Position numbers and translations under genes: made by a program
Notes under the pieces: generated by a model
The model's database searches: none
Seen by the model: the letters and a program-made list of their open reading frames with translations, nothing else
What the model was told of the DNA's origin: nothing
Shown here: positions 33,451-54,566 of the stretch, piece after piece
Layout of the letters: the number at the start of each line of letters is the position of its first letter
Position numbering within the stretch: position 1 is the first letter of the stretch
Virus record (IMG/VR): IMGVR_UViG_3300022934_003307
Coordinates: 1 to 64,000 of that record
Length of the DNA stretch: 64,000 bases
Source of the DNA: a virus
Strand: one strand, 5' to 3'

Positions 33451-33570
33451 ATGAAAAAAACATTGAAAGCGTTTAAAGACAAATATGGTGAAGGTACAGC
33501 GGCAGATTTAGACTATGGCAAATTAATTATTCTTGGTCTTTGTATTTACATCGCAGTACAGGTATCTTAA
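33451..33570 (+). CDS. 39-residue single-pass membrane protein
   Basis: The product starts MKKTLKAFKDKYGEGTAADL and ends in the hydrophobic segment 'LIILGLCIYIAVQV'. A charged N-terminal half followed by one membrane span is the visible structure. It lies immediately after a promoter with leaderless geometry and one base before mazG. GGAG exists upstream but falls before the predicted transcript start. Function unknown. Confidence 0.6.
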   Translation: MKKTLKAFKDKYGEGTAADLDYGKLIILGLCIYIAVQVS

Positions 33571-33571
33571 T

Positions 33572-33985
33572 ATGAGTGAAAATTGGGTAAAAGATATCAA
33601 TGAAATGCACCAGAAATATGGTGTACATGATTGGTTTGAAAATAACAAAGATAACAAAGATCTTATGAAAAAGTATCTTATGTTTCGTCTTTTGATGTGT
33701 AATGAGGAATTGCATGAAACAATGCAAGCAATTAATAATGGCGATCCCGAGGAAACCGTTGACGGTCTTATTGACCTTTGTGTTTTTGCTATCGGTACTC
33801 TCGACGTTTTTGGTGTAGATGCCAATAAAGCATGGGATGAAATTTATAAAGCAAATATGGCCAAAAAAGCAGGCGTAAAACCTGGTAGACCAAATCGCTT
33901 TGGTTTGCCTGATTTATTAAAACCTGGTGGATGGCAACCACCAAGTCATGAGGATAATCATGGAGATCTCTCTAACGCTCTTTAA
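33572..33985 (+). CDS. mazG: MazG-like nucleotide pyrophosphohydrolase
   Basis: This 137-residue all-alpha NTP-PPase has 'FRLLMCNEELHETMQAINNG' near residue 38 and 'ETVDGLIDLCVFAIGTLDVF' near 60, the EExxE ... ExxD metal-binding arrangement of MazG. It hydrolyses (d)NTPs or ppGpp-like nucleotides; in a phage with modified cytosine it could remove dCTP, but that is speculation. ATG 33572 is preferred to one at 33533 that lies within the small membrane gene. Confidence 0.85.
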   Translation: MSENWVKDINEMHQKYGVHDWFENNKDNKDLMKKYLMFRLLMCNEELHETMQAINNGDPEETVDGLIDLCVFAIGTLDVFGVDANKAWDEIYKANMAKKAGVKPGRPNRFGLPDLLKPGGWQPPSHEDNHGDLSNAL

Positions 33986-36609: not shown

Positions 36610-36724
36610 AGAAAAAGTAGAATACATTATACGAAGCTATGATGGTAATGTATTAACAGTGTCACTATGGATAAAGGATAAAGATGTCAAAAGAATCTCT
36701 AAAAGTACTTCAGAAAGCAGCTGA
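36575..36724 (+). CDS. possible 49-residue protein overlapping both neighbours
   Basis: A TTG start with GGAG eight bases upstream opens a 49-residue basic protein ('RKEKVEYIIRSYDGNVLTVS' in the middle) that overlaps the upstream gene by 35 bases and the downstream one by 41. The composition looks protein-like in the non-overlapped middle part, and TTG starts occur elsewhere in this phage. It is weaker than its neighbours and could be chance. Confidence 0.35.
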   Translation: MTLKKLQKLFRKEKVEYIIRSYDGNVLTVSLWIKDKDVKRISKSTSESS

Positions 36725-37061
36725 AGTACAAACTAAAAAAGGTAATGATTACCAAAACCCAAACTCACGTGTAAAGCAAGCTGATTACTATCCACGTGGT
36801 TGTGCTACACTTCTTGATACAATGTATGCTAAAGTACTACGCATGCAGTCTGTACTTGAAGCAATGGAAAATGATCCTGACTATAAACCAAATTTTGAAT
36901 CGCTTGAAGACTCTTGCATTGATATTATCAATTATGCATCTTTCTTTGCTGCATATATGAAAAATGGTATTGATGGACAAGATCCTAATCGTGATTTTCT
37001 AAATAGGCCGAAAGCAAAAAATGTCAATACCTCACGTACGCAGGACAATGAATCCGCCTAA
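36684..37061 (+). CDS. DUF1599 / nucleotide-modification-associated domain 1 protein
   Basis: This 125-residue protein fits the NMAD1 (DUF1599) pattern: 'KKGNDYQNPNSRVKQADYYP' near residue 18, 'LDTMYAKVLRMQSVLEAM' near 44 and 'ESLEDSCIDIINYASFFAAY' near 72. The family is associated by genome context with modified-nucleotide phages. Here it starts a run of nucleotide and sugar genes that leads to dCMP hydroxymethylase and a DNA glucosyltransferase. It overlaps the next gene by 14 bases. Confidence 0.75.
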   Translation: MSKESLKVLQKAAEVQTKKGNDYQNPNSRVKQADYYPRGCATLLDTMYAKVLRMQSVLEAMENDPDYKPNFESLEDSCIDIINYASFFAAYMKNGIDGQDPNRDFLNRPKAKNVNTSRTQDNESA

Positions 37062-37758
37062 GAATTATATATTTGATGTAGATGGTACATTAACACCTAG
37101 CCGTGGCCGTATTGATGTAAACTTTTCTTGGTGGTTTGCTAAGTTTGTAGAAAATAATAATGTATATCTTGTAACTGGTAGCGATAGACCAAAAACTATT
37201 GAACAAATTGGTGAATACATTTATGGAAAATGTCAGCGCGTTTATCAATGCGCAGGTGCAGAAGTTTACAAAAATGAATTGTGTATTTCTAGAAGTGAGT
37301 GGATAGGTTCATCAGCTCTTATTGAAGCATGCGAAAAAGAACTTATATCTAATCAATTTCCTTTAAGAACCGGTAATCATATTGAGCAAAGAACGGGATT
37401 ATTAAATTTTAGTATTATTGGCCGGAATTGTACTCTTGGTGAAAGAAAACTTTATGTCAAATATGATGAAGAAAATAATGATCGTGAAAAAATAGCTAGA
37501 AGACTAAGAAAATCATTTCCAGATTTAGGATTTAAAGTTGCTGGTGAAACCGGTATTGATATTACACCTAAAGATTGCAATAAATCTCAAATTCTAAAAG
37601 ATTTTGGTTCTTATGATCATATATACTTTTTTGGAGATAAAACAGGTCCGGGAGGTAATGACTATGAAATATATGAAGCTATCAATGACATGCCATGTGG
37701 TAAAAGTTTTGCGGTAAACGGATGGAAAGAAACATGGAATACACTAAAAAGCTTGTAG
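37048..37758 (+). CDS. phosphomannomutase-like HAD enzyme (PMM2 type)
   Basis: This is a 236-residue HAD phosphomutase of the eukaryote-type PMM family: 'FDVDGTLTPSRGRID' (DxDxT nucleophile) near residue 9, 'EQRTGLLNFSIIGRNC' near 112, 'GFKVAGETGIDITPK' near 165 and 'FFGDKTGPGGNDYEIY' near 194. It interconverts mannose-6- and mannose-1-phosphate (or glucose phosphates) to feed NDP-sugar synthesis. The start has AGGA upstream and overlaps the previous gene. PMM2-type enzymes are uncommon in bacteria, so this phage copy is notable. Confidence 0.82.
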   Translation: MNPPKNYIFDVDGTLTPSRGRIDVNFSWWFAKFVENNNVYLVTGSDRPKTIEQIGEYIYGKCQRVYQCAGAEVYKNELCISRSEWIGSSALIEACEKELISNQFPLRTGNHIEQRTGLLNFSIIGRNCTLGERKLYVKYDEENNDREKIARRLRKSFPDLGFKVAGETGIDITPKDCNKSQILKDFGSYDHIYFFGDKTGPGGNDYEIYEAINDMPCGKSFAVNGWKETWNTLKSL

Positions 37759-38168
37759 GTTTTACTTGCAGTACTTTTGATTTATTACATGCTGGGCATG
37801 TAGCTATGTTACGTGAAGCTAAAGCGCAGTGTGATTATCTTATTGTTGGATTACAGGTGGATCCTTCAATAGATAGAAAAGAAAAAAATGCACCTGTTCA
37901 AACGATTGTCGAAAGGCAAGCTCAACTTTCTGCTATTAAATATGTAGACGAAGTTTTAGTTTATACCACAGAATCTGATTTGCTCGACATTCTTAATATG
38001 TATCCGATTGATATCCGTATACTCGGAGAAGAATATCGAGATAAAGAATTCACAGGAAAAGACCAATGCAGGAGACGAGGAATACAGTTATATTTCAACA
38101 AGAGAGATCACCGGTTTTCGACCAGCGATTTAAGGATGAGGGTTTCGGAATGTTCGAAAAGAAAATAG
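37734..38168 (+). CDS. cytidylyltransferase (glycerol-3-phosphate type)
   Basis: This 144-residue nucleotidyltransferase has 'GFTCSTFDLLHAGHVAML' (HAGH motif) near residue 8 and 'HRFSTSDLRMRV' near 124, the counterpart of the RxxxTSxL motif. Relatives (TagD/RfaE-C type) attach CMP or AMP to glycerol phosphate or sugar phosphates. It is embedded in a sugar-nucleotide cluster, overlapping PMM by 25 bases and UDP-glucose dehydrogenase by 19. Confidence 0.85.
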   Translation: MEYTKKLVGFTCSTFDLLHAGHVAMLREAKAQCDYLIVGLQVDPSIDRKEKNAPVQTIVERQAQLSAIKYVDEVLVYTTESDLLDILNMYPIDIRILGEEYRDKEFTGKDQCRRRGIQLYFNKRDHRFSTSDLRMRVSECSKRK

Positions 38169-38971
38169 CAATTGTTGGAATGGGCTTCGTAGGTAGCGCA
38201 GTTGCTTATGGATTTAATCATCCATTTGTAGAACAACAGCATATTGATCCAAAGTTAGGTAATAGCATCATGGATATCCATGATGATACAGATTTTATTT
38301 TTGTCTGTGTACCAACACCTATGGATGATTTTAGCATTGTTCGAGAAGTGATGGAAGAATTATATTCAAATGATTTTCCAGCGGTAATTATCTTAAAATC
38401 AACTGTGCCACCAAATATCATTGAAGAAATGATTCACCCAGACATGGTATATAATCCAGAATTTCTTACTGAGAAATCTGCGGCAGAGCAATTCATTAAT
38501 CCTAATTTCCATATTCTTGGTGGAAGTGATGATGCTATTGGAGATGTATTAGATTTATATGAAAGATATAGTCTATGTAATCCGGCACCGTTTTTTAATA
38601 TGACGGCTGAAGAAGCATCAATTGTAAAATATACAATCAATTCTTTCTTAGCAACTAAAGTCACATTCTTTAATCAGATGTATGATTTTTGTAAGCAATG
38701 GCAAGCAAATCCTTCTATAGTTTTTAATGCTGTAGGTGCTGATCCAAGAATTGGCCACGGTCACACTAAAGTTCCAGGCTTTGATAATAAACGAGGATTT
38801 GGTGGAGCGTGTTTCCCAAAAGACACAAAAGCAATTACAGATATTGCTGGCACAGGTGTACTATCTCTTATCGAGCATGTCATTAAAGTTAATAATGATT
38901 ATAGAAATCAATATGAAAGAGATGATAGAGAAAAAGAACAAAATATAGTTTACTTTCCAAAGGATGTATGA
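38150..38971 (+). CDS. UDP-glucose 6-dehydrogenase-like
   Basis: This 273-residue enzyme has the Rossmann motif 'IAIVGMGFVGSAVAYGF' at residues 6-22, 'PEFLTEKSA' near 105, the central 'NSFLATKVTFFNQM' helix near 165 and the catalytic Cys loop 'GFGGACFPKDTKAI' near 214. It oxidises UDP-glucose (or another NDP-hexose) to the uronate. It is shorter than full-length Ugd (about 390-440 residues) and lacks the C-terminal UDP-binding domain, as in some phage homologues. The start overlaps the cytidylyltransferase gene. Confidence 0.85.
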   Translation: MFEKKIAIVGMGFVGSAVAYGFNHPFVEQQHIDPKLGNSIMDIHDDTDFIFVCVPTPMDDFSIVREVMEELYSNDFPAVIILKSTVPPNIIEEMIHPDMVYNPEFLTEKSAAEQFINPNFHILGGSDDAIGDVLDLYERYSLCNPAPFFNMTAEEASIVKYTINSFLATKVTFFNQMYDFCKQWQANPSIVFNAVGADPRIGHGHTKVPGFDNKRGFGGACFPKDTKAITDIAGTGVLSLIEHVIKVNNDYRNQYERDDREKEQNIVYFPKDV

Positions 38972-38977
38972 TATAAT
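38949..38977 (+). promoter_or_regulatory. early promoter of dCMP hydroxymethylase, leaderless geometry
   Basis: TTTACT (38949-38954), 17 bases, TATAAT (38972-38977). The ATG at 38984 is 6 bases after the -10 box, the same spacing as at gp43, 33451 and thyX. Confidence 0.75.
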
Positions 38978-38983
38978 ATGCTT

Positions 38984-39673
38984 ATGTACAGTGTAAAAGA
39001 TATTAGAGAGTTTTTCATAGGTGAGCTAAAAGATGAAGCTTTTACCATGGATAAAACTGGTCAAAAAACAATTGAAATGATTGGTGCTTCATTTATAGCA
39101 AGTGAACCAGCTATTTTTGGTACGCCTAATCATGAATATATCGCAAAAGAACTTGCGTGGTATGAGTCACAATCAACAAACATTTATGATATTAATAAAG
39201 AGTCTGGCGCTGATGCTCCTACTGCTTGGAAATATACTGCAAATACTCACGGAGAAATCAATTCTAATTACGGAAAATTGATTTTCGATGATATATATTA
39301 TAACCAGTACGGAAACGTACTGGACGAGTTGATTAATAATCCAGATGGGCGTAGAGCTAGTATGATCTATAATCGTCCTTCTATTTGGGTTGAATATAAT
39401 GAAAACAATAAAAACGATTTTATTTGCACTAATAGTGTTACGTATTACATACGAGATAATCTTTTACATGCTGTAGTTCAAATGAGATCTAATGATGTTA
39501 TTTTTGGTTATAAAAACGATTATGCTTGGCAACGTTACGTAATGGATCGTTTAATAATGGATTATAATGGATTAAATATGTATGATAGCGGAGATAAAAT
39601 AGAGCTTGGTCACATTGTTTGGCAAGTTCAAAACTTACATGTTTATGAAAGGCATTTCCATCTTGTTAAATAA
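38984..39673 (+). CDS. 42: dCMP hydroxymethylase (thymidylate-synthase family, gp42-like)
   Basis: This 229-residue ThyA-fold enzyme has catalytic Cys 148 in 'FICTNSVTYYIRD'. The substrate loop reads 'MRSNDVIFGYKND', placing Asp 179 where thymidylate synthases have the Asn that selects dUMP. These positions equal the Cys148/Asp179 pair of T4 dCMP hydroxymethylase. It makes hydroxymethyl-dCMP for incorporation into DNA. A separate ThyX is encoded at 47851, consistent with this enzyme not serving dTMP synthesis. The ATG at 38984 is chosen from the promoter spacing; 38978 overlaps the promoter edge. Confidence 0.85.
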   Translation: MYSVKDIREFFIGELKDEAFTMDKTGQKTIEMIGASFIASEPAIFGTPNHEYIAKELAWYESQSTNIYDINKESGADAPTAWKYTANTHGEINSNYGKLIFDDIYYNQYGNVLDELINNPDGRRASMIYNRPSIWVEYNENNKNDFICTNSVTYYIRDNLLHAVVQMRSNDVIFGYKNDYAWQRYVMDRLIMDYNGLNMYDSGDKIELGHIVWQVQNLHVYERHFHLVK

Positions 39674-40100
39674 ATGGAAATATCGATATTTGGATTTAGC
39701 AGATCAAGTAGGTTCTTGGTCTAAAGATCCATCTCGTAAAATAGGAGCAATAGCAGTTGGTAAACATGGCCAAGTGTTAGCACAAGGTTATAACGGATTT
39801 CCTCGAGGTATTTCTGACATGGATGAACGTTATAATGATCGACAACTCAAATACAAATATGTAGTACATGCAGAAATGAACTGTATTTACAATGCAGCTG
39901 ATAATGGCGTATCATTAAGAGGTGCAGATTTGTACGTAACAGGTTTGCCAACCTGTTCAGATTGCGCGAAAGGAGTTATACAAGTTGGCATTAAGCGAGT
40001 CTTCATGCGAGCTGATGTTCCAGAAGCATGGATAGACTCATGGAAATTAACACAAAGTTTCTTTAATGAAGCAGGAGTCAAATATGAACTTATTGGATAA
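39645..40100 (+). CDS. cd: deoxycytidylate deaminase
   Basis: This 151-residue zinc deaminase has 'YVVHAEMNCIYNAA' (HAE motif) near residue 67 and 'GLPTCSDCAKGVI' (PCxxC-like PTCSDC) near 98. It converts dCMP to dUMP for dTTP synthesis. 'SKDPSRKIGAIAV' at the N-terminus is conserved in phage dCMP deaminases. The start lies inside the hydroxymethylase gene (ATG 39639 or 39645), and it overlaps the next small gene. Confidence 0.9.
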   Translation: MKGISILLNKWKYRYLDLADQVGSWSKDPSRKIGAIAVGKHGQVLAQGYNGFPRGISDMDERYNDRQLKYKYVVHAEMNCIYNAADNGVSLRGADLYVTGLPTCSDCAKGVIQVGIKRVFMRADVPEAWIDSWKLTQSFFNEAGVKYELIG

Positions 40101-40326
40101 AGTAAAAGCAAGTACCGAATCACCCGATGACGACAACTCATATACTCAAGAAAGATATTATGAATATATGTTAAGGCGTTATCGAGAAGAAAAAGAATCT
40201 CAAACTCCTATTAAATCTGATCTTCAACGAGAAGCTGAAATATCAGATTTAAAAGAAAGAATTAAAAAACTTGAAGTCGATATGGCTCATGTCCAATTAG
40301 AACAAAAAACAACTCTATATGGGTAA
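40084..40326 (+). CDS. small coiled-coil protein, unknown
   Basis: This 80-residue charged protein has a predicted coiled coil in residues 45-78 ('AEISDLKERIKKLEVDMAHV'). AGGAG is well placed before ATG 40084. It ends just before a strong terminator. No function is recognised. Confidence 0.65.
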   Translation: MNLLDKVKASTESPDDDNSYTQERYYEYMLRRYREEKESQTPIKSDLQREAEISDLKERIKKLEVDMAHVQLEQKTTLYG

Positions 40327-40334
40327 TTGATTAG

Positions 40335-40359
40335 GTGAGGGGAAATTTCCCCTCACTTT
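40335..40359 (+). terminator. perfect palindromic terminator
   Basis: GTGAGGGGAAA and TTTCCCCTCAC form an 11-bp perfect inverted repeat followed by TTTA. It separates the nucleotide-metabolism unit from the glucosyltransferase promoter and could act in both directions. Confidence 0.75.
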
Positions 40360-40371
40360 AAAACTTAACGG

Positions 40372-40400
40372 TGTACATTCTACTAAAAATTTGATAGAAT
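40372..40400 (+). promoter_or_regulatory. early promoter of the DNA glucosyltransferase
   Basis: TGTACA (40372-40377), 17 bases, TAGAAT (40395-40400) keep the exact spacing of the other early promoters; the -35 box has one change from TTTACA. A leader of about 20 bases with AGGA precedes the ATG. Confidence 0.75.
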
Positions 40401-40427
40401 AATAAAAATAACAGTTAGGACTATATT

Positions 40428-41705
40428 ATGAAAATTGGCGTAATTCTTGGCCGCGGTGTAGAAGGCGTTGGCCTTACTAAGAATGTAGTAGAATTTCAAA
40501 AATTATTTCCAGGCGTAGAAGTATTTGCCACAATTGATAAATTGTGGCCACGTATGAATTCTATGAATTTTAAAGTAAATTATTTTCGTGGATCTGATTG
40601 GGATACTATTAGTAAGCCTGCTAAAAAATTTCCCAATTTACTTACCTGTACTCAAGTAATTGATCGTATAAATGAATTAGATGCTTGTATTGTTTGGAGT
40701 GTACCTTCAAAATCTCATCCAGAAGATATGGTTGAAAATTTTATTAATTTACTTGATAAAATTAAAATACGTAAATCATTAGTTCAAGTTGATCATAAAA
40801 TTCATTCAATTAATCGTAATGCACGATTATCTGAAATTTGTTCTAAAATGAATGTTCTTATGTGTCATTCAATTGATAATCCATTTGGTCAATGGGTAAA
40901 GAAAAATAATATTAAAGTCCCTCTTACTAATATGGGTGTAGGATTTAATTTCAATAAAGATTATTGGAAACCAATTGAACAGCAAGATCCTCGTTATATT
41001 CGTTGGGTTGGTAGATCTGCCATGTGGAAAGGTCCAGATCTTATGATTGATTTACACAATGATTGGTTTCGTAAAAGCAATTTCATTACAGTATTAGAAG
41101 GTTTAGAAGCATCTATCCAATGGCCACTCATTGTATATAAAAATCCAAAAGAAATGTCTGATAGACGAGATGTGATTAATTATTTCAGACCTGAAAAAGG
41201 TATAGATGAAAATTCTTCTAGAGATCCACAATATGGTACTGAAAAAGAAAACTCAGGCGCTTATCTTTATACATCATATATTCATAGTGAAATGATGGAA
41301 CGTATGAGTCTTAGCGGGTTTGGTGCAGATTTGATGAACTTTAAAGAAAATGTATATGGTAATAATGTAGAATATTGTCATACTGATGCATTTGCTGCTG
41401 GTGTTATTCCATTATTCCATAAACACTTTTGTGATAATGTTATACACCGTAAACAAGGAAAACCAATTTCTGAGTGCATAAATACTGGTACGTTGGGTAT
41501 AGATAAAACTAATGCACGTGATGTATTTCAGACAATGATGAATCTTAAAAATGATAATGGACTTAGATCTGATATGCGAGAACAAATGTTTGAATTTTGG
41601 AAAGAACATTGCGATGCTGAAATAGTTTATAAAGACATTCTCGACAAAACACTTAATTTTAACGAGCTTGAAGAAGAAGCTACATTGGAGGAGTTTTTTG
41701 CATGA
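40428..41705 (+). CDS. agt: DNA alpha-glucosyltransferase-like (T4 AGT family)
   Basis: This 425-residue GT-B glycosyltransferase follows T4 alpha-glucosyltransferase closely in layout: 'GRGVEGVGLTKNVVEFQ' at residues 8-24, 'RWVGRSAMWKGPDLM' near 189, 'VLEGLEASIQ' near 223, 'SEMMERMSLSGFGADL' near 287 and 'EYCHTDAFAAGVIPLF' near 313. T4 AGT transfers glucose from UDP-glucose to 5-hydroxymethylcytosine in DNA. With the dCMP hydroxymethylase nearby this argues for glycosylated cytosines that resist restriction. The sugar actually used is unknown. Confidence 0.82.
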   Translation: MKIGVILGRGVEGVGLTKNVVEFQKLFPGVEVFATIDKLWPRMNSMNFKVNYFRGSDWDTISKPAKKFPNLLTCTQVIDRINELDACIVWSVPSKSHPEDMVENFINLLDKIKIRKSLVQVDHKIHSINRNARLSEICSKMNVLMCHSIDNPFGQWVKKNNIKVPLTNMGVGFNFNKDYWKPIEQQDPRYIRWVGRSAMWKGPDLMIDLHNDWFRKSNFITVLEGLEASIQWPLIVYKNPKEMSDRRDVINYFRPEKGIDENSSRDPQYGTEKENSGAYLYTSYIHSEMMERMSLSGFGADLMNFKENVYGNNVEYCHTDAFAAGVIPLFHKHFCDNVIHRKQGKPISECINTGTLGIDKTNARDVFQTMMNLKNDNGLRSDMREQMFEFWKEHCDAEIVYKDILDKTLNFNELEEEATLEEFFA

Positions 41706-42454
41706 AAATTGTAATTACTGGATCAAGAGGGTTTATTGGTTCCCATCTTAAAAATCATTATGAAAACAAACATCAAATTGTTGAATGGGATAGAAGTATT
41801 AAAAAAAACATTGAAGATTTTTCTTTGTCATCTGGTGTTGGTGCAGTAGTTCATTTAGCTGCACTTGCTGATGTAAGAAGAAGTATTGCTGAACCCGATT
41901 TATATTGGCAAAATAATGTAATAAATACTAAAAGAATACAGGATATGTGTGCAATGCATAACGTAAAGTTATTATATGCATCTTCATCATGTATTCACAA
42001 TTGGAGTTTATCACCGTATGGAACCTCAAAGAAAGTCAACGAAGCAACAGCTCATCCAGGCCAAGTTGGTCTCCGCTTTACCACTGTTTATGGCGATGGT
42101 GCTCGGGATACTATGTTTATGGGCCGGCTTCTTTCCGGTGATCTTCAGTATAGTACTAACCATATTCGTGATTTTATTCATGTTAGTGATGTTGTCTCAG
42201 CGATTGATTCAATTATTTTTTCTGAGCATGAACCCAAACATGGCGCTTATGATATTGGGACTGGAAATGGTAATCCTGTATCAGCTCTTGCTAAATTGGC
42301 TGGATATGATATTCCCGTAAAAGATGGGGATCCATGCGAAGCACAGGATAATACTGCAGATATTACACCAATGCAAGAAGAGTTTGGTTGGGAACCAAAG
42401 GTTGATGTAAAAAAATATATTATTAATCATCAATATGAAGGAACTCCTGTTTAA
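41702..42454 (+). CDS. NAD-dependent sugar epimerase/dehydratase-like
   Basis: This 250-residue extended SDR has 'MKIVITGSRGFIGSHL' (GxxGxxG) at the N-terminus, 'HLAALADVRRS' near 51, 'YASSSCIHNW' near 93 and the catalytic 'YGTSK' near 106. It resembles GalE/WcaG enzymes that epimerise or dehydrate NDP-sugars. It overlaps the glucosyltransferase by 4 bases and abuts the C5-methyltransferase, so it may tailor the donor sugar for the modification. It is shorter than typical GalE (about 330 residues). Confidence 0.85.
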   Translation: MKIVITGSRGFIGSHLKNHYENKHQIVEWDRSIKKNIEDFSLSSGVGAVVHLAALADVRRSIAEPDLYWQNNVINTKRIQDMCAMHNVKLLYASSSCIHNWSLSPYGTSKKVNEATAHPGQVGLRFTTVYGDGARDTMFMGRLLSGDLQYSTNHIRDFIHVSDVVSAIDSIIFSEHEPKHGAYDIGTGNGNPVSALAKLAGYDIPVKDGDPCEAQDNTADITPMQEEFGWEPKVDVKKYIINHQYEGTPV

Positions 42455-43644
42455 TGAATTATGCAAGTATAGTCCCGCTCATTGGTGGTGAGACTATCGC
42501 CATGGAGCGGGTCTTTAATAAAAAACCGGAGTATATTTTAAGTTATGAACCGTTTCAATCTAATGACGACCATTTGGTCAAATATTACAAATCAGTTCCC
42601 TACCATCTTATCGATGATGGTAGGGAACCTGTGTTTTCTAATGTCGATGTTATTAATACCGTATGTCCTTGTGCTGGTCTTAGCAGTTTATCTACTACAG
42701 CTAATTCTGATTCTGCTGCTAACGATTGGATGCGCACCACAGCTACTTATGTATTGGGTACACTCAAACCTAAAGTATTCTGGGGCGAAAACGCGCCAAG
42801 ACTTGCTTCTAAAATGGGACAACCGATTGTCGAAGATCTCAGACAAATTGGGAGAGATAACGGATACACTTTCTCAATATATAAGACGAAGTCTATCCTT
42901 CATGGATTAAGTCAAACTCGTGATAGAACTTTTTATTTTTTCTGGAAAGGTGAAAAAGTACCAAAATTCGAATATATAAAAAGGAAGCACGAGAAAATTG
43001 AGGATACGATACGTTCCGTGAAACGAGATCAAGCTGATCCAATGAACATCCTAACTAATGATCGTGTTCCAACTGAGAATGCTTATTATAAGTATATCCT
43101 TCAAGAAATTGAAGGTGGTATGGATCATGCTACATTTTCTTCTAAAATAGAAAAATCTACAAACGTATTAGATCATATTGAAAAACATACAACTTATGAC
43201 AAAGTAGCTAAATGGATGGCTAAAAATGGCTATCATAAAGAAGCTGATCGTTGTAATAAAATGTATGATAAATTAAAAGCCGGTTTTAATATTATGAGAA
43301 AAAATGTAGAAATTCCAAAAGATTATATTGGAGCATTTGTAGGACATTATCCAACACAACTTACTCATCCAGATGAAGATCGTTTTCTTACAATTCGTGA
43401 ATGTATGTCTATTATGAAATTACCTAATGACATGATATTACAAGGCGGTAAAAAAAATATAAATCATATTTGTCAAAACGTGCCCGTAACTACTGCTATG
43501 GATATGGCAGAGCATGTATTAAAATTTATTGATGGTAGATTATCAAATCAAATGATTGATACTGATTATGTAGTTCAATGTAATAAATCTCAAAAAATTC
43601 AATATCAGCAAAATAGTTTACAACTCGATGAATTTATGGTATAA
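42454..43644 (+). CDS. DNA (cytosine-5) methyltransferase-like
   Basis: This 396-residue protein carries C5-methylase motifs in order: a motif I region 'VPLIGGETIAMERVF' (7-21), a motif IV variant 'TVCPCAGLSSLS' (catalytic Cys 73; Ala replaces the usual Gln after Cys), motif VI 'WGENAPR' (120), motif VIII 'QTRDR' near 154, motif IX 'TIRECMSIMKLPNDM' near 310 and motif X 'NVPVTTAMDMAEH' near 340. It starts at the TAATG junction with the epimerase gene. The PCA variant and the predicted hydroxymethylcytosine content raise the question of its real substrate. Confidence 0.85.
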   Translation: MNYASIVPLIGGETIAMERVFNKKPEYILSYEPFQSNDDHLVKYYKSVPYHLIDDGREPVFSNVDVINTVCPCAGLSSLSTTANSDSAANDWMRTTATYVLGTLKPKVFWGENAPRLASKMGQPIVEDLRQIGRDNGYTFSIYKTKSILHGLSQTRDRTFYFFWKGEKVPKFEYIKRKHEKIEDTIRSVKRDQADPMNILTNDRVPTENAYYKYILQEIEGGMDHATFSSKIEKSTNVLDHIEKHTTYDKVAKWMAKNGYHKEADRCNKMYDKLKAGFNIMRKNVEIPKDYIGAFVGHYPTQLTHPDEDRFLTIRECMSIMKLPNDMILQGGKKNINHICQNVPVTTAMDMAEHVLKFIDGRLSNQMIDTDYVVQCNKSQKIQYQQNSLQLDEFMV

Positions 43645-43667: not shown

Positions 43668-44708
43668 ATGTCAATAATGGATAAATTGAAAAAGAATAGT
43701 AAAGTAGAATATACTAATGTTCTTGCAGATAGTAAATTTTTTACTGAAAAAGATATGGTACCAACAGATGTGCCAATGATTAATGTTGCATTATCGGGTT
43801 CAGTTGATGGCGGTGTTGCACCAGGTCTTACTGTATTAGCTGGTCCATCAAAACATTTTAAAACTTCATTTGGTCTTATTATGGCCTCAGCATATTTGAA
43901 AAAATATCCTGAAGCTGTATTATTATTTTATGATTCTGAATTTGGTTCACCACAATCATACTTTCAACAATACGATATTGATACAACTCGTGTTCTTCAT
44001 ACACCAATTACAAATGTAGAAGAACTTAAATTTGATGTTATATCACAACTTGAAGGTTTGGATAGAGAAGATAAAGTTATCATAATGATTGATTCAGTTG
44101 GTAACTTAGCATCGAAAAAAGAATTAGAAGATGCTATCAATGAAAAATCTGTAGCAGATATGTCAAGAGCAAAAGCTCTTAAAGGCTTATTTAGAATGGT
44201 AACACCATATTTAAATATGAAAGATATTCCTTTACTTGCTGTAAATCATACTTATATGGAAATTGGTTTATTTCCAAAAGCAGTGGTGTCTGGTGGAACG
44301 GGTATATACTATAGTGCGGATAATATTTGGATTCTTGGTAGACAACAAGATAAAAAAGGTACAGAAATTCAAGGTTACCATTTTGTAATTAATGTTGAGA
44401 AAAGTAGATATGTTAAAGAAAAGTCTAAGATTCCTATTACTGTTTCCTGGGACGGTGGTGTTCGCAATTACAGCGGCCTTCTTGATGTGGCTCTCGCTGG
44501 TGGCTACGTTACTAAACCTTCCAACGGCTGGTACGCTGAAGTTAATCAGGAAACTGGTGAAATTGGCTCAAAGGTTAGGTATGATCAAACTTTAGAGGAA
44601 GCCTTTTGGATACCAATTTTTGAAGACACAGATTTTAAAGAATTTTTGAAAAAGCAATATGCTATTGGTTATAAAGCAGAAGTGGAGCTAGATTTTGAAA
44701 CAGAATGA
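43668..44708 (+). CDS. uvsX: RecA-like recombinase UvsX
   Basis: This 346-residue RecA-fold protein has Walker A 'AGPSKHFKTSFG' near residue 58 (UvsX-type), Walker B 'IIMIDSVGNL' near 139 and an L2-like 'GGTGIYYSAD' near 207. It pairs ssDNA with homologous duplex in recombination-dependent replication, loaded by UvsY. The 3' end overlaps the next gene by 14 bases. Confidence 0.95.
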   Translation: MSIMDKLKKNSKVEYTNVLADSKFFTEKDMVPTDVPMINVALSGSVDGGVAPGLTVLAGPSKHFKTSFGLIMASAYLKKYPEAVLLFYDSEFGSPQSYFQQYDIDTTRVLHTPITNVEELKFDVISQLEGLDREDKVIIMIDSVGNLASKKELEDAINEKSVADMSRAKALKGLFRMVTPYLNMKDIPLLAVNHTYMEIGLFPKAVVSGGTGIYYSADNIWILGRQQDKKGTEIQGYHFVINVEKSRYVKEKSKIPITVSWDGGVRNYSGLLDVALAGGYVTKPSNGWYAEVNQETGEIGSKVRYDQTLEEAFWIPIFEDTDFKEFLKKQYAIGYKAEVELDFETE

Positions 44709-45533: not shown

Positions 45534-46894
45534 ATAATAAAATAGAACAAACTATACTTCGAAATTTGCTTAGCGATGAGAAGTATATGAGGCGTGTATT
45601 GCCTTTTATTAAACCTGAATACTTTGAAGGTCCATATCGTACTTTATTCAAAGAAGCTGGTAAGTATGTAGCAAAGTATAATAAATTGCCTACCGCTGAA
45701 TCATTTATGGTTGAGCTGAATAATTCAGATGTAAGTGGTGATGCTTACACCGCAGCATGTGAAATTGCTGAAACATTATTTGTTGGTGATTCAGTTGATG
45801 AACAATGGCTTATTGATAACACTGAAAAGTGGTGTCAAGATCGTGCAATCTATAATGCTGTAATGGAATCAATTACTATCATTGATGGTAAGCATGATAA
45901 ATTAACTAAGAATAGTCTTCCATCTCTTTTACAAGATGCACTAGCTGTAACATTCGATGCTTCAGTTGGACATGACTATACAGAAGATGCAGGATTAAGA
46001 TATGACTTTTATCACACTGAAGAAGATAGAATTCCTTTTGATTTGGAATACTTTAATAAAATTACTAAAGGAGGTGTACCTAATAAAACCCTCAACATTG
46101 CTTTGGCTGGGACTGGGGTTGGCAAATCTTTGTTTATGTGTCACGTTGCTGCTAACGCATTACTTGAAGGAAGGAACGTTCTTTACATAACAATGGAAAT
46201 GGCAGAAGAAAGAATAGCAGAACGTATTGATGCTAATTTACTTAATGTAGCCATTGATCAATTAGATAATTTATCTAAAGATATGTTTACAACTAAAGTT
46301 GCTGACCTTGCGCGTAAAACAACTGGTAAATTAATTATTAAAGAATATCCCACTGGTTCTGCACATGCTGGTCATTTTAGAGCATTATTAAATGAATTAA
46401 AATTAAAGAAACAATTCTTACCTGATATTATCTTTATTGATTATTTAAATATTTGTGCATCTAGTAGAATGAAAGGAATGGGCGGTGCTATCAATTCATA
46501 CAACTACATTAAAGCAATTGCTGAAGAACTACGAGGTCTTGCAGTGGAATACGACCTACCGATATTCTCTGCAACGCAAACGACTCGCAGTGGTTATAGC
46601 AACTCGGATGTTGGGCTTGAAGATACCTCTGAGTCTTTTGGATTACCCGCTACCGCAGACCTCATGTTCGCACTCATCTCAACCGAAGAACTTGAAAAAT
46701 CACGTCAAATTATGGTTAAGCAACTTAAAAATCGTTATAATGATCCTACTCATCATAAAAGATTTGTTATTGGTATTGATCGAAGTCGTATGCGCCTTTA
46801 TGATGTGGATGATTCCCAACAAACGTTAACTGATGATACACCAGTTTTTGATAAAACTCCAGCCGGTAAAAAGTTTGAAGATTTTAAATTATGA
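45530..46894 (+). CDS. 41: replicative DNA helicase, gp41-like
   Basis: This 454-residue DnaB-family helicase has an N-terminal helical domain (1-110), Walker A 'LAGTGVGKSLF' near residue 191, Walker B 'IIFIDYLNI' near 303 and 'SATQTTRSGY' near 344 (motif H3 region). It unwinds DNA 5' to 3' ahead of gp43. It overlaps the following glycosyltransferase gene by 4 bases. Confidence 0.94.
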   Translation: MNNKIEQTILRNLLSDEKYMRRVLPFIKPEYFEGPYRTLFKEAGKYVAKYNKLPTAESFMVELNNSDVSGDAYTAACEIAETLFVGDSVDEQWLIDNTEKWCQDRAIYNAVMESITIIDGKHDKLTKNSLPSLLQDALAVTFDASVGHDYTEDAGLRYDFYHTEEDRIPFDLEYFNKITKGGVPNKTLNIALAGTGVGKSLFMCHVAANALLEGRNVLYITMEMAEERIAERIDANLLNVAIDQLDNLSKDMFTTKVADLARKTTGKLIIKEYPTGSAHAGHFRALLNELKLKKQFLPDIIFIDYLNICASSRMKGMGGAINSYNYIKAIAEELRGLAVEYDLPIFSATQTTRSGYSNSDVGLEDTSESFGLPATADLMFALISTEELEKSRQIMVKQLKNRYNDPTHHKRFVIGIDRSRMRLYDVDDSQQTLTDDTPVFDKTPAGKKFEDFKL

Positions 46895-47826
46895 GATATT
46901 TATTAGTAGGTTCTACATTTGAAGAAGATAATAGCTATCCAGCTGTACAACTTCAAAATTATAAATTTGTATTTGATAATGCAGATATTGTAACTATAAG
47001 AAAACCAGAAGCAGATAAGAAAAATCCAATCTATTATAAAAAATTAATGGATGAATTTAATAAGTATAATTTAGATGATTATGATTTTGTTATTGGTGTC
47101 GGAGATTTTTATTGGTCCGGTTTAAATAAAGCTCATGGATTTCGTAAACCAAATACAACCGCTAAATTTGTAGAGTTTAATAATCGTCCAGAAATAATGA
47201 GTGATGTTCCTGATTATGTGTTATATCATTTAAATATACCTACAACAACATATGGCTGTAAATATGTAGGACAAGGATTAGATCCATATAAATTGTCTAT
47301 ATCTAATCCAGATAAAGACTTTTTGAGAGTTTTAGTAGATCATAGAATGAATAATAGAAATGATAATACAGATAATATTTTGTCATATCTTGAAGGCGTA
47401 TCTAAAAACATTCCTCTTAAAGTAATTCATCATTCGAATTCTGGATTGGTTGAAAATGCATTTATAGAATCAGATGAATCTAAACAATTACCAACTTATA
47501 AAAAATATCCATATTTAGATATGTGTAAACTATATAGCGAAATAGATATATTCTTTGCTACTCATAGAGAAACACAAGGATTAACTGGACTAGAAGTAGC
47601 AATGTGTGGTGGGCTTCCGATAATAGGATATAATATGTATCCACAAGAAATTAAAAATAAACTACCGCACTATGCATATGGGTCTTTAGGAGACATTAAT
47701 TGGACATCAGTAAAATCATTATGTTCTAATAAATTTAGAATAGAACGAAGAGAAAAAATTAAAAAACATTTTGGTTTAAATAAATTTAAAAAAAGAGTAT
47801 TAAATGCTCTTGAAATTTCACTTTAA
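46891..47826 (+). CDS. GT-B-type glycosyltransferase-like protein
   Basis: This 311-residue protein has a C-terminal part with the donor-binding look of GT4 enzymes: 'DIFFATHRETQGLTGLEVAM' near residue 224, followed by CGGLPIIGY. The N-terminal part has 'DYDFVIGVGDFYWSG' near 63. It is shorter than most GT-B enzymes. It could act on DNA, as a second sugar transfer, or on the envelope; neither is shown by the sequence. It is coupled to gene 41. Confidence 0.65.
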   Translation: MRYLLVGSTFEEDNSYPAVQLQNYKFVFDNADIVTIRKPEADKKNPIYYKKLMDEFNKYNLDDYDFVIGVGDFYWSGLNKAHGFRKPNTTAKFVEFNNRPEIMSDVPDYVLYHLNIPTTTYGCKYVGQGLDPYKLSISNPDKDFLRVLVDHRMNNRNDNTDNILSYLEGVSKNIPLKVIHHSNSGLVENAFIESDESKQLPTYKKYPYLDMCKLYSEIDIFFATHRETQGLTGLEVAMCGGLPIIGYNMYPQEIKNKLPHYAYGSLGDINWTSVKSLCSNKFRIERREKIKKHFGLNKFKKRVLNALEISL

Positions 47827-47850: not shown

Positions 47851-48564
47851 ATGTCAGAAGGCAAACTATTGCAAAAAGTAAAATTAATTAGTTATTCCCA
47901 ACCAGTATCGGAAGGAGTTGATGTCGATGACGCTCAAGATCTCATCGCTTATTGCGCCCGTGTTTCCAATCCATCGAACCAATCTAATAAAAAGACAGCT
48001 GAAAGACTCTTGTCATACCTTGCCAAAGAAAACCACTGGTCACCGTTCGAAATGGTCTCAGCTTGCCTTGAAATCGAAACAACCCGTGACATCGCAAGAC
48101 AAATCTTAAGACATAGAAGTTTTAGCTTTCAAGAATTTAGTCAACGATATGCTGATCCTCTTAAAGATTTAGATATGGTTAAACGTGAAGCTCGTCTTCA
48201 AGACTATAGCAATCGTCAAAATTCTATTGAAATTGAAAATGATCCTTCTATTCAATTAGATTTAACAAAACAAAATTTGATTACTGAGTGGGGTCGTAGA
48301 CAACACGGAATTATGAATCAAGCTAGAGATGTATATCAATGGGCAATAGAAAATGGTATTGCTAAAGAACAAGCACGTTCTGTTTTACCAGAAGGAAATA
48401 CAGTATCAAGAATTTATATGAATGGTACTATTCGTTCTTGGATGCATTATATTGAATTAAGATCAGGTAATGGAACTCAAAAAGAACACCGTGAGGTTGC
48501 AATTGCTTGTGCTAAAGAATTGGAAAAGGTATTTCCAATCATACATAAATTCATAAAAAAATGA
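47851..48564 (+). CDS. thyX: flavin-dependent thymidylate synthase ThyX
   Basis: This 237-residue protein has the ThyX motif 'RHRSFSFQEFSQRY' near residue 87, 'SPFEMVSACLEIETTRDIAR' near 64, and the C-terminal 'LPEGNTVSRIYMNGTIRSWM' near 171 carrying nucleotide-binding Arg residues. It makes dTMP from dUMP using FAD and methylene-tetrahydrofolate. It complements the dCMP deaminase and frees the ThyA-fold enzyme for dCMP hydroxymethylation. Confidence 0.95.
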   Translation: MSEGKLLQKVKLISYSQPVSEGVDVDDAQDLIAYCARVSNPSNQSNKKTAERLLSYLAKENHWSPFEMVSACLEIETTRDIARQILRHRSFSFQEFSQRYADPLKDLDMVKREARLQDYSNRQNSIEIENDPSIQLDLTKQNLITEWGRRQHGIMNQARDVYQWAIENGIAKEQARSVLPEGNTVSRIYMNGTIRSWMHYIELRSGNGTQKEHREVAIACAKELEKVFPIIHKFIKK

Positions 48565-52335: not shown

Positions 52336-53268
52336 ATGAATTATTTTGAATTAAAACCTGAAGAAAACACATTTTCAAATATTGTAATAGATCTTACTCA
52401 TAGATGTAATATGGAGTGCGCTAATTGTTATATCCCAAATAGAGATATTCCAGATCTAAATAAAAATAAACTATATGAGTTTTTATCTAAACTTCCTCAT
52501 AGAACATATATAAGATTAATTGGTGCTGAACCAACAATGCGTGATGATTTGCCGGAAATTATATCTACGGTTAAAAAGCTTGGTCATCGCCCAAGTGTAA
52601 CTACTAATGGATTAAAACTAGCTAGAAGAGAATATGTAAAACAACTAAAAAATGCTGGTCTTAGATTATTACTTCATAGTATGAATGGTGCCGATGATGA
52701 TATGGCATATAAAGAATTGGATAATGGTAATTGGGCTACAGTTAAAGTAAGAGCATTAGATAATATATTTGCTGAAAGACTACCAATTAATACTGGTACT
52801 ATTATCGCTCGTGGTGTAAATGAATACATAATGAATAGACAAGTAGAAGTGTTTGCTGAAAGAGCAATAAAGTCTGGAATCAATTTTAATACTACTGCTC
52901 CATATAATAGAATTACACCAGTTTTAAGAATGAAATCTGTAGGTGCAATCGGTAGATATATGGAAGGAGTGTCTTATACAATTGATGAATTAATTGAAAT
53001 GGCAAGTTATAGATTAGGCGTAAATAAATCAGATATGATTCAAACATCTGCGGGTGTTGTTAAAGCTGGTCCATCAATGGAGGCTTTAACATCTTGGATG
53101 TTTCCATATGAAACAGAAGCTGGTAAAATATTAATTAGACTTATAGATTGGCAAACTGATGATGATGGTGTTATCGATCATGATAATCCAAATAGAGGTA
53201 GACTTACCGAAAATTTTACAGTAGCACCTTTCTTTGAACATGTTAAAGTAAATGAGAACAATTACTAA
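52336..53268 (+). CDS. radical SAM enzyme
   Basis: This 310-residue radical SAM protein has the cluster motif CNMECANC (Cys 24, 28, 31), a 'GAEPTMRDDL' loop near 65 (the GGEP SAM-binding motif with Ala for the second Gly), 'SVTTNGL' near 91 and 'LLLHSMNGADDD' near 115. The C-terminal third lacks an obvious Cys-rich SPASM domain. It heads the oxygenase cluster and overlaps the next gene by 17 bases, so it may act in the same modification pathway. The substrate is unknown. Confidence 0.85.
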   Translation: MNYFELKPEENTFSNIVIDLTHRCNMECANCYIPNRDIPDLNKNKLYEFLSKLPHRTYIRLIGAEPTMRDDLPEIISTVKKLGHRPSVTTNGLKLARREYVKQLKNAGLRLLLHSMNGADDDMAYKELDNGNWATVKVRALDNIFAERLPINTGTIIARGVNEYIMNRQVEVFAERAIKSGINFNTTAPYNRITPVLRMKSVGAIGRYMEGVSYTIDELIEMASYRLGVNKSDMIQTSAGVVKAGPSMEALTSWMFPYETEAGKILIRLIDWQTDDDGVIDHDNPNRGRLTENFTVAPFFEHVKVNENNY

Positions 53269-53758
53269 ATACGATAAACTTTGGTTTTATGCTTTAGATC
53301 AAATATTTGAAATGATTGAAAGAATACCAGATAACGATTATCTTAAAGAAAATTATTCTATAGATAATCTGCAATCTCATACATGGGAAGCAGTATCATA
53401 CGATAAAAATCAATTTTCTTCTATACTCCATAGAGATTTATGGGGTAACAATTGTAGAATTTTAAATAGATTCTATAAAACTCCAGAATCTAGATTCGAA
53501 AATTCAAAAGGGAAAATGTCTCAAGCTACTTTAGAAATGATTGATCAGCAATTAAAAGTTGCACATAAATTAGGATTTGATTGTGCATTTATGAGCAGAG
53601 AAAAAAATCATCAAGCATTTAGACACTATGTTAAACATTTACCACAAGATTGGTATATAGAAAATTCACCTTATCAAATGACAGAAACAAGTTGGCAACA
53701 TTTAATGTGGACACCAATAAATAGTAACATATTAATAATGGAGAATCAAAATGGTTAA
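53252..53758 (+). CDS. conserved protein in oxygenase cluster, unknown fold
   Basis: This 168-residue protein has 'CRILNRFYKTPESRFE' near 68, 'AHKLGFDCAFMSREKNHQAF' near 104 and 'HYVKHLPQDWYIENSPYQM' near 125. The spacing faintly recalls phage proteins with acetyltransferase-like folds, but I see no clear acyl-CoA motif. It is coupled to the radical SAM gene upstream and overlaps the first TauD-like gene by 8 bases. Confidence 0.65.
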   Translation: MRTITKYDKLWFYALDQIFEMIERIPDNDYLKENYSIDNLQSHTWEAVSYDKNQFSSILHRDLWGNNCRILNRFYKTPESRFENSKGKMSQATLEMIDQQLKVAHKLGFDCAFMSREKNHQAFRHYVKHLPQDWYIENSPYQMTETSWQHLMWTPINSNILIMENQNG

Positions 53759-54566
53759 AGTGATAGAAAATATTAATTATTCTATTGATGGCCCAAAAGT
53801 GGTAGAATATCTTGGCGATCATCGCACTGTAATTATTAAAAATAAACAACCAGTAGAACCTGAAACTCTTATAAGTTTTTATAAAACACTTGGTAATGTT
53901 ATTCAACAAAATGACAAAGTTACAGGAACTATTGCGACAGGTGAATTGGTTAAAGTTAGGCAAAACGGTTTATTTGCTGGTAAAGAAGATGGCGAATTAG
54001 AATGGCATTCAGCTGGAATGAATAGAACTGGTCATGATGATATCGTAGCAATGTATATGCATCAACCCGCTGAGAGTGGAGGTGATACTTATTTTACTGA
54101 TCATCAAACTGCTTGGAACGATCTTGATGAAGAAACAAAAAATATATGTCGCAGCGTAAAATCAAAAACAGTTACATATACATCTAAAATGAAATTAGAA
54201 AAAATGCACTATAAAAATGTATTTAGTGATGAACAAACTATGATGGAATTTAGAGATATAGATGGAAAAACTAGTTTTGAAAAACAAACACCTCGTAAAG
54301 ATTTAGTTACAAAACATCCTATTAATAATAAAGAAGGATTATATTATCCATGGAGTGTTATTAGAGGTTTTACTGGTTTAGATCGTGATCAACAACATTC
54401 TTTATATTATAAATTAAAAAGCCATACATTAAAATCAAAGTATGTTTATACGCATAAATGGGATAAATATGATATTGTTTTAAGCGACCAACATCATAGC
54501 TTACATAAACGTGATGCATATACCGGTGATCGTGAATTATGGAGGGCTGGAATATGCTTGAAATAG
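53751..54566 (+). CDS. TauD-like 2-oxoglutarate/Fe enzyme with HxA (halogenase-type) triad
   Basis: This 271-residue protein aligns over its length with TauD/TfdA: 'LEWHSAGMNR' (H86-S87-A88) sits where TauD has WHTD, followed by 'SGGDTYFTDHQTAW' as TauD 'TGGDTLWTS'. The distal His 252 lies in 'HHSLHKRDAY' and the 2-oxoglutarate Arg 265 in 'RELWRAGI'. The metal-binding Asp of HxD is Ala, the replacement known from SyrB2-type non-haem iron halogenases where chloride fills the site. It could be a halogenase, an enzyme with altered chemistry, or an inactive partner of the adjacent HxD paralogue. Confidence 0.8.
   Translation: MVKVIENINYSIDGPKVVEYLGDHRTVIIKNKQPVEPETLISFYKTLGNVIQQNDKVTGTIATGELVKVRQNGLFAGKEDGELEWHSAGMNRTGHDDIVAMYMHQPAESGGDTYFTDHQTAWNDLDEETKNICRSVKSKTVTYTSKMKLEKMHYKNVFSDEQTMMEFRDIDGKTSFEKQTPRKDLVTKHPINNKEGLYYPWSVIRGFTGLDRDQQHSLYYKLKSHTLKSKYVYTHKWDKYDIVLSDQHHSLHKRDAYTGDRELWRAGICLK

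Follow-up and report, generated by a model that had tools for sequence, protein, structure and literature searches.

A probable pathway to glycosylated hydroxymethylcytosine, with exchangeable cassettes and a pocket-altered C5-methyltransferase homologue, in a marine T4-like phage

We analysed a 64-kb stretch (hereafter the window; positions 1 to 64,000) of the 68.4-kb IMG/VR record IMGVR_UViG_3300022934_003307, which belongs to a marine T4-like phage, and found that its replication genes enclose an island likely to equip the virus DNA with glycosylated 5-hydroxymethylcytosine (hmC). Glucosylation of hmC in T4 is the standard example of how a phage disguises its DNA. Genes were called by combining a list of open reading frames (ORFs) with Pfam, PHROGs and NCBIfam profile searches of the window; the pathway and sugar-module genes given below with coordinates, uvsX and ThyX lie on the + strand. 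Downstream of DNA polymerase gp43 we found a PRA-PH nucleotidase, a primase, two unknown genes, an NMAD1-like gene, a phosphomannomutase-like gene (PMM), an HldE-C-like nucleotidyltransferase and a UDP-glucose dehydrogenase-like gene (UGD), followed by gp42, a dCMP deaminase, a small ORF, a DNA glycosyltransferase of the T4 AGT family, an epimerase, a homologue of C5-cytosine methyltransferases (C5 homologue), uvsX, gp41 and ThyX. As in T4, the right border is the UvsX recombinase (43668-44708; identified by synteny and by blastn to T4-like uvsX). Given that the relative gene order matches that of T4 (43-imm-42-bgt-uvsX), we regard the island as an enlarged T4 hmC locus. We favour, with moderate confidence, reading it as a T4-type pathway for glycosylated hmC which uses a galacto-configured sugar donor and in which the C5 homologue takes part. 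A first-pass annotation of positions 36684-43644 had also proposed glycosylated hmC; it mentioned neither the dCMP deaminase nor the MazG/PRA-PH nucleotidase, nor the C5 homologue, which lies inside that interval. The glycosylated-hmC component is well supported because several lines of evidence agree: the homology of gp42 and AGT to their T4 counterparts, their catalytic residues, the shared synteny (43-42-GT-uvsX), and the presence of a PRA-PH nucleotidase and a dCMP deaminase, as in modified contigs described previously (PMC8670742). The more interesting finding, however, is the combination of a pocket-altered C5 enzyme with an island of exchangeable cassettes, rather than the sugar pathway itself.

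Judged by its sequence, the ThyA-fold protein encoded at 38978-39673 is a dCMP hydroxymethylase of the T4 gp42 type. In a phmmer search against solved structures it matched T4 gp42 (1b49) with E=7e-71, while thymidylate synthases (TS) reached about 1e-5 or weaker. Aligning the protein with those of T4, RB69 and relatives bore out the earlier observation that Cys148 (the nucleophile) and Asp179 (where TS has Asn177) are positioned as in T4; Glu60, Ser94 and Tyr96 match T4 as well. A different chemistry was considered here, given that RB69 relatives, whose TS-fold enzymes belong to the same superfamily, are reported to make 5-hydroxy-dCMP instead of hm-dCMP (PMC13390438), the sugar then being attached directly to the C5 oxygen. 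However, identity to the window protein is 52% for T4 gp42 and only 23% for RB69 ORF048c, and the RB69 enzyme differs from T4 gp42 at precisely the three positions (Glu60, Ser94 and Tyr96) that the window protein keeps. Since both identity and residues side with T4, hmC is favoured over 5-hydroxycytosine; an RB69-type 5-hydroxy-dCMP synthase was rejected for this gene, and a direct C5-O linkage in this virus is very improbable. In the arabinosyl- and pentosyl-cytosine modules of RB69/Mosigvirus and Thanatos, too, the interval from gene 43 to uvsX holds a TS-like enzyme along with sugar genes, but that enzyme makes 5-hydroxy-dCMP (PMC13390438) and the sugar genes belong to other families; the C5 homologue had no match in these modules.

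The DNA alpha-glycosyltransferase proposed earlier was recovered at 40428-41705 (PF11440, E=8e-30, 104.6 bits against a cut-off of 25; 1xv5, E=1.5e-35). T4 Asp115 (catalytic), His116, Arg204 and Glu306, among others, were aligned, and the relatives of two clades keep them. The gene had also been credited with its own promoter. The 101-bp gap before it does hold a GTGAGGGG-aaatt-CCCCTCAC hairpin and a TGTACA-17-TAGAAT site, but promoter-like sites in this region are no more common than in shuffled sequences (41 vs 48.5). Overlapping the AGT gene by 4 bp (ATGA), and the gene of the C5 homologue by 1 bp, is the gene of a compact (250 aa) NAD-dependent nucleotide-sugar epimerase (41702-42454; PF01370, E=1e-22). 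Its best equivalog is GalE, at 74.4 bits against a cut-off of 262.3, and among solved structures its closest relative is MoeE5, which is listed among UDP-glucuronate (UDP-GlcA) 4-epimerases (PMC12338863). The window protein keeps the Thr and Arg found at the carboxylate-holding positions of those enzymes (TVYG...R stretch; the Arg corresponds to Arg185 in PMC12338863). It does not have the RFFTVYGP.GRPDM signature, and the position of the Arg is shifted in some relatives. In UDP-GlcA decarboxylases the TSE motif carries the catalytic Glu; this residue is Cys in the window epimerase (SSSC), by which a decarboxylase role was rejected.

To place these genes in context, we gathered related loci by AGT, gp42 and uvsX, clustered their ORFs and listed the resulting architectures; removal of islands with gp42 of at least 95% identity left 57 islands. 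In relatives the compact epimerase lies directly or closely downstream of the window's AGT clade, which it always accompanies, and the type of epimerase switches with the AGT clade. Elsewhere the compact epimerase pairs with a UDP-galactopyranose mutase and a protein of T4-BGT-like fold. We consider it a credible donor-making partner of AGT. Because of this pairing, and because the compact epimerase usually has no UGD, we predict from gene context that the AGT donor is probably galacto-configured (UDP-galactose or UDP-galacturonate, UDP-GalA) rather than plain UDP-glucose.

The genes downstream of gp42 and the dCMP deaminase differ between relatives in the manner of exchangeable cassettes. Besides the window type (AGT, compact epimerase, C5 homologue), we found a second AGT clade with a UDP-GlcA-4-epimerase-like gene, UGD and the C5 homologue; ORF cluster c56 together with the compact epimerase and UDP-galactopyranose mutase (PF03275, E=4e-51), in some phages also with the C5 homologue; TAGT (PF20691) with the C5 homologue; myo-inositol-phosphate synthase with cluster c18 and the C5 homologue; and c18 with a PLP-type protein and cluster c21, usually with UGD and an epimerase, and without the C5 homologue. 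That cassettes are exchanged as a unit is suggested by loci L043 and L047, whose gp42 is 87% and 73% identical to that of the window. Both keep the run from NMAD1 through PMM, nucleotidyltransferase, UGD and gp42 to dCMP deaminase, while a c18/c21 cassette replaces AGT; L043, which extends to uvsX, contains no C5 homologue. In the second AGT clade the epimerase signature is canonical and UGD is a neighbour, and there we would sooner guess UDP-GalA as the donor.

The mutase was always found with c56 (8/8 islands). The structural model of c56 (pLDDT 73) is closest to T4 BGT (Foldseek 9e-6; VIA-align Z 15.6, 294 aligned residues, rmsd 4.8); other GT-B enzymes follow closely. On the strength of this model c56 is probably another DNA glycosyltransferase, and its cassette predicts galactofuranosyl-hmC. 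The c56-mutase-compact epimerase run lies beside gp42 at L089:7241-9369, and also in L083, L090, L116, L120, L161, L166, L169 and L183. The cassette of c18, the PLP-type protein (threonine dehydratase in PHROGs) and c21, seen at L043:9276-13100, in L047, L056 and others, might serve to link hmC to an amino compound. Pfam gave no match for c18, c21, c56 or a 331-aa protein of L043. A myo-inositol-1-phosphate synthase stands by gp42, along with the C5 homologue and a protein distantly related to c18, at L058:11323-12618 (also in L105, L214, L215, L243, L247, L252, L268 and L279), making an inositol-based cytosine decoration possible in such loci. A small protein resembling uracil-DNA glycosylase (PF03167, E=2e-4, below cut-off; L022:191-568, in a cluster of 59) lies between dCMP deaminase and AGT in many relatives; it was not found in the window.

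The last gene of the window cassette (42454-43644; PF00145, E=1e-16) encodes the C5 homologue, whose S-adenosylmethionine (SAM) pocket has been rewritten. Its AlphaFold model (pLDDT 85) has the C5-methyltransferase fold, and motifs IV, VI and VIII are kept, with Cys73, Glu112-Asn113, Arg156 and Arg158 invariant. By contrast, motif I reads (V/I)PL(I/V)GG instead of the canonical FxGxGG, with Gly20 replaced by Leu throughout the family; the acid of motif II is not conserved; and Asn304 of motif X is replaced by Gln341 in all 64 relatives as well as in Pseudoalteromonas phage XG4, cyanophage S-TIM54 and phage G gp301. In ordinary C5 enzymes Gly20 and Asn304 were each present in 30/30 and Phe18 in 28/30, in a comparison set made up of the 30 top-scoring enzymes of one bacterial phylum and thus biased to canonical ones. 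Position 304 adjoins the transferred group. In CmoX of Synechococcus phage S-B43, a DNA cytosine C5-carboxymethyltransferase, it is occupied by an Arg that serves the use of carboxy-SAM (PMC12783734). CmoX was tried as an identity since its structure (8YF3) topped the Foldseek search, and was rejected: the window protein has VCPC rather than SPPC and Gln341 rather than Arg. This ranking was also unspecific, because VIA-align places ordinary methylases as high or higher (Z of 21.8 for M.HaeIII and about 21 for M.HhaI, against 20.4 for CmoX). The two proteins share the fold, and both deviate from Asn304; they differ in genomic association too, with gp42 in our case and with CmoA/CmoY in that of CmoX.

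The C5 homologue was present in 24/24 dereplicated AGT islands and in 9/33 islands without AGT (p=7e-9), and in 0/20 islands with c21 as against 33/37 without it (p=9e-12), although these p-values overstate independence, as the islands share ancestry. Among loci anchored on the C5 homologue with at least 4.5 kb upstream, gp42 was near it in 28 of 29. Two further phages bring to three the lineages in which this protein is associated with a dCMP-type TS and with glycosyltransferases. The isolated Pseudoalteromonas phage vB_Psh_XG4 carries an unannotated run (L203:100-6580) of gp42, a HAD-like gene, a nucleotidyltransferase-like gene, two glycosyltransferase-like ORFs and the C5 homologue. In cyanophage S-TIM54, a protein annotated as ThyA (L202:9117-9959) has Asp at the dCMP-selecting TS Asn177 position and may, from its sequence, act on dCMP; the C5 homologue is close by and AGT elsewhere.

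Upstream of these genes, the PRA-PH/MazG-like nucleotide pyrophosphohydrolase is a candidate dCTPase (33572-33985; PF01503, E=2e-9; the ORF spans 33533-33985, with the ATG at 33572 the likely start). It was found in 6/6 long related records with gp42 (69 to 220 kb) and in 0/3 without detectable gp42, and its gene moves along with gp42 in rearranged relatives. The NMAD1-like (DUF1599) protein noted in the first-pass annotation does adjoin the pathway (36684-37061), with a PF07659 match that is below the Pfam cut-off (E=0.0095; 16.7 bits against a gathering score of 25); it lies beside gp42 in most relatives, and it is present in 4/6 of the long gp42 records and in 0/3 without detectable gp42. 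One PHROG profile (18404) covers both the PRA-PH and the NMAD1-like protein, each aligning to a different part of it; this hints at a fusion in some phages and at a shared role. A dCMP deaminase (39606-40100; PF00383, E=6e-18; PHROG 174) and ThyX (47851-48564; PF02511, E=3e-44), a separate source of dTMP, were also identified. MetaGPA found a PRA-PH nucleotidase and a dCMP deaminase with Asp177-type TS genes in contigs of phages with 5-carbamoyloxymethyl-cytosine (PMC8670742); their final step is carbamoylation, whereas that of the window would be glycosylation. The pathway had been described as complete-looking, which the kinase searches did not bear out: neither a T4 gp1-type dNMP kinase (PF21448) nor a thymidylate kinase (PF02223) was found in the 68.4-kb record or its longer relatives, which may be fragments.

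Taken together, these genes suggest a route in which the PRA-PH nucleotidase would lower dCTP, gp42 would convert dCMP into hm-dCMP (as its homology and residues indicate), and some kinase would phosphorylate hm-dCMP for incorporation into DNA by gp43. AGT, to go by its family and catalytic residues, would then add a sugar to hmC in DNA, from a donor most likely remodelled by the coupled epimerase to UDP-galactose or UDP-galacturonate, while dCMP deaminase and ThyX would make dTMP separately. As for the donor, a simpler possibility is plain T4 chemistry, with AGT using host UDP-glucose to form alpha-glucosyl-hmC and the epimerase serving something else: UDP-glucose is available in most hosts, and the sole characterised PF11440 members, to which the window AGT is about 30% identical, are T4-type glucosyltransferases. 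We nonetheless consider it unlikely, as it does not account for an epimerase that is translationally coupled to AGT, accompanies its clade throughout and changes type with it. Closer to the earlier proposal is a uronic-acid version, in which UGD would supply UDP-GlcA, the epimerase would turn it into UDP-GalA and AGT would produce uronosyl-hmC. The window does contain UGD, the epimerase keeps the carboxylate-binding Thr and Arg (PMC12338863), and the second AGT clade has both UGD and a canonical UDP-GlcA 4-epimerase beside AGT. In the window's own AGT clade, however, UGD was seen in few loci: 3/43 of those with AGT and the compact epimerase (L035, L076 and L077, window excluded), representing two contigs or more since L035 and L076 come from the same contig. 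Many of these loci are short, and the one fetched for the window itself (L001) does not extend as far as the window UGD, although L007 and L033 cover 10 kb to either side. Moreover, UGD occupies the downstream slot in 22/25 islands with the UDP-GlcA-4-epimerase type but in 0/25 with the compact type, whose pairing with the mutase elsewhere also counts against this version; we regard the uronic-acid version as rather doubtful.

The galacto-configured pathway would also include the C5 homologue, which probably acts on cytosine or hmC in DNA by something other than ordinary SAM-dependent methylation. Such a role is chemically plausible because in vitro M.HhaI makes hmC from cytosine with formaldehyde and an engineered M.SssI couples thiols to hmC (both PMC7176277), and because C5 methyltransferases apparently also remove the hydroxymethyl group (PMC11347137). 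The main competing explanation is an ordinary SAM-dependent 5-methylcytosine methyltransferase protecting leftover cytosines, given that the protein has retained its fold and every catalytic residue for cytosine binding, and that a diverged pocket can still bind SAM. To this we assign a sizeable minority chance, as residues present in every ordinary homologue compared are Leu and Gln throughout the family, and as the protein hardly ever occurs away from gp42, a setting in which little unmodified cytosine is to be expected. More tentatively, the C5 homologue could be a new DNA-modifying enzyme which has kept cytosine activation, lost canonical SAM use, and either hydroxymethylates leftover cytosines or adds a group to hmC. 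Several points count against the pathway as we propose it: it is built on sequence and models; the hm-dCMP kinase families were missing from the searched records, though these may be fragments; the compact epimerase reaches no equivalog cut-off and has a signature partly like that of UDP-GlcA 4-epimerases; the residues of AGT give no donor choice, which we read from gene context; and the divergent pocket of the C5 homologue is no proof against SAM use.

Compared with the T4 hmC system (gp42, AGT, BGT, gp56 and gp1), the window shares the gp42 type, the AGT family, the place between gene 43 and uvsX, and the dCMP deaminase, but has AGT rather than BGT beside gp42, a dedicated epimerase, the C5 homologue, exchangeable cassettes, and a PRA-PH nucleotidase instead of a gp56-family dCTPase; gp1 was not found in the searched records. 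In the literature we found nothing linking UGD, an epimerase or a cytosine methyltransferase with hmC phages. If our reading is true, interchangeable decorating cassettes rest on a common hmC foundation in a broad set of uncultured marine T4-like phages, and cassette swapping would explain a varying DNA surface in the face of restriction and CRISPR. It leads to chemical predictions, namely galacto-configured sugars, and galactofuranose for the mutase cassette, and makes the cofactor and reaction of the C5 family a target. Should the C5 homologue be a new kind of DNA-modifying enzyme, as tentatively suggested above, cytosines of these phages would carry something besides sugar, or reach full replacement after replication. 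For DNA labelling, a C5 enzyme that works on hmC independently of SAM would be a useful tool.

The remaining sugar genes of the island look like a separate module that is not specific to the modification pathway. Profile searches (Pfam, PHROG and NCBIfam) recovered the PMM, cytidylyltransferase, UGD, epimerase and ThyX named in the first-pass annotation. The module comprises a HAD-type PMM-like protein (37021-37758; PF03332, E=7e-33; not pathway-specific), a HIGH-type nucleotidyltransferase resembling the HldE C-domain (37722-38168; PF01467, E=1e-13; TIGR02199, E=4e-23, below the equivalog cut-off) and a UDP-glucose/GDP-mannose dehydrogenase-like UGD (38150-38971, within an ORF at 38066-38971 whose likely start is the ATG at 38150). 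In the latter, Pfam matched PF03721 and PF00984 and no C-terminal UDP-binding domain; the closest solved relative is 4a7p (E=5e-25), and GGxCFPKD is kept. That these genes form a module of their own is argued by their presence without gp42 and by their staying by uvsX when gp42 moves. PMM was found without gp42 in loci G006/G007, and UGD and epimerase genes occupy the same place in three records without detectable gp42 (of 177 kb and 82 kb, and the complete phage C48C1), the first two of which also have PMM, a cupin and a nucleotidyltransferase. In rearranged relatives the nucleotidyltransferase and UGD remain by uvsX, while PRA-PH, gp42 and usually NMAD1 and dCMP deaminase are found together beyond thyX. 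Most loci with window-type AGT show no PMM, cytidylyltransferase or UGD nearby. The earlier idea of a non-glucose sugar made by local enzymes thus remains credible for the epimerase, but is not supported for PMM, the cytidylyltransferase or UGD. In the nearest relative, L043, a KDO-8-phosphate synthase (above the equivalog cut-off) and a CMP-KDO synthetase-like gene lie just after uvsX (L043:15197-16598).

Further downstream in the window, a second glycosyltransferase-like protein (46891-47826; PHROG 2518, with a GT-B-like motif recognised by eye) lies between gp41 and thyX and had no match among the fetched relatives. Beyond the replication genes (52336-54566) are a radical SAM protein (52336-53268) and a TauD-type dioxygenase (53751-54566).

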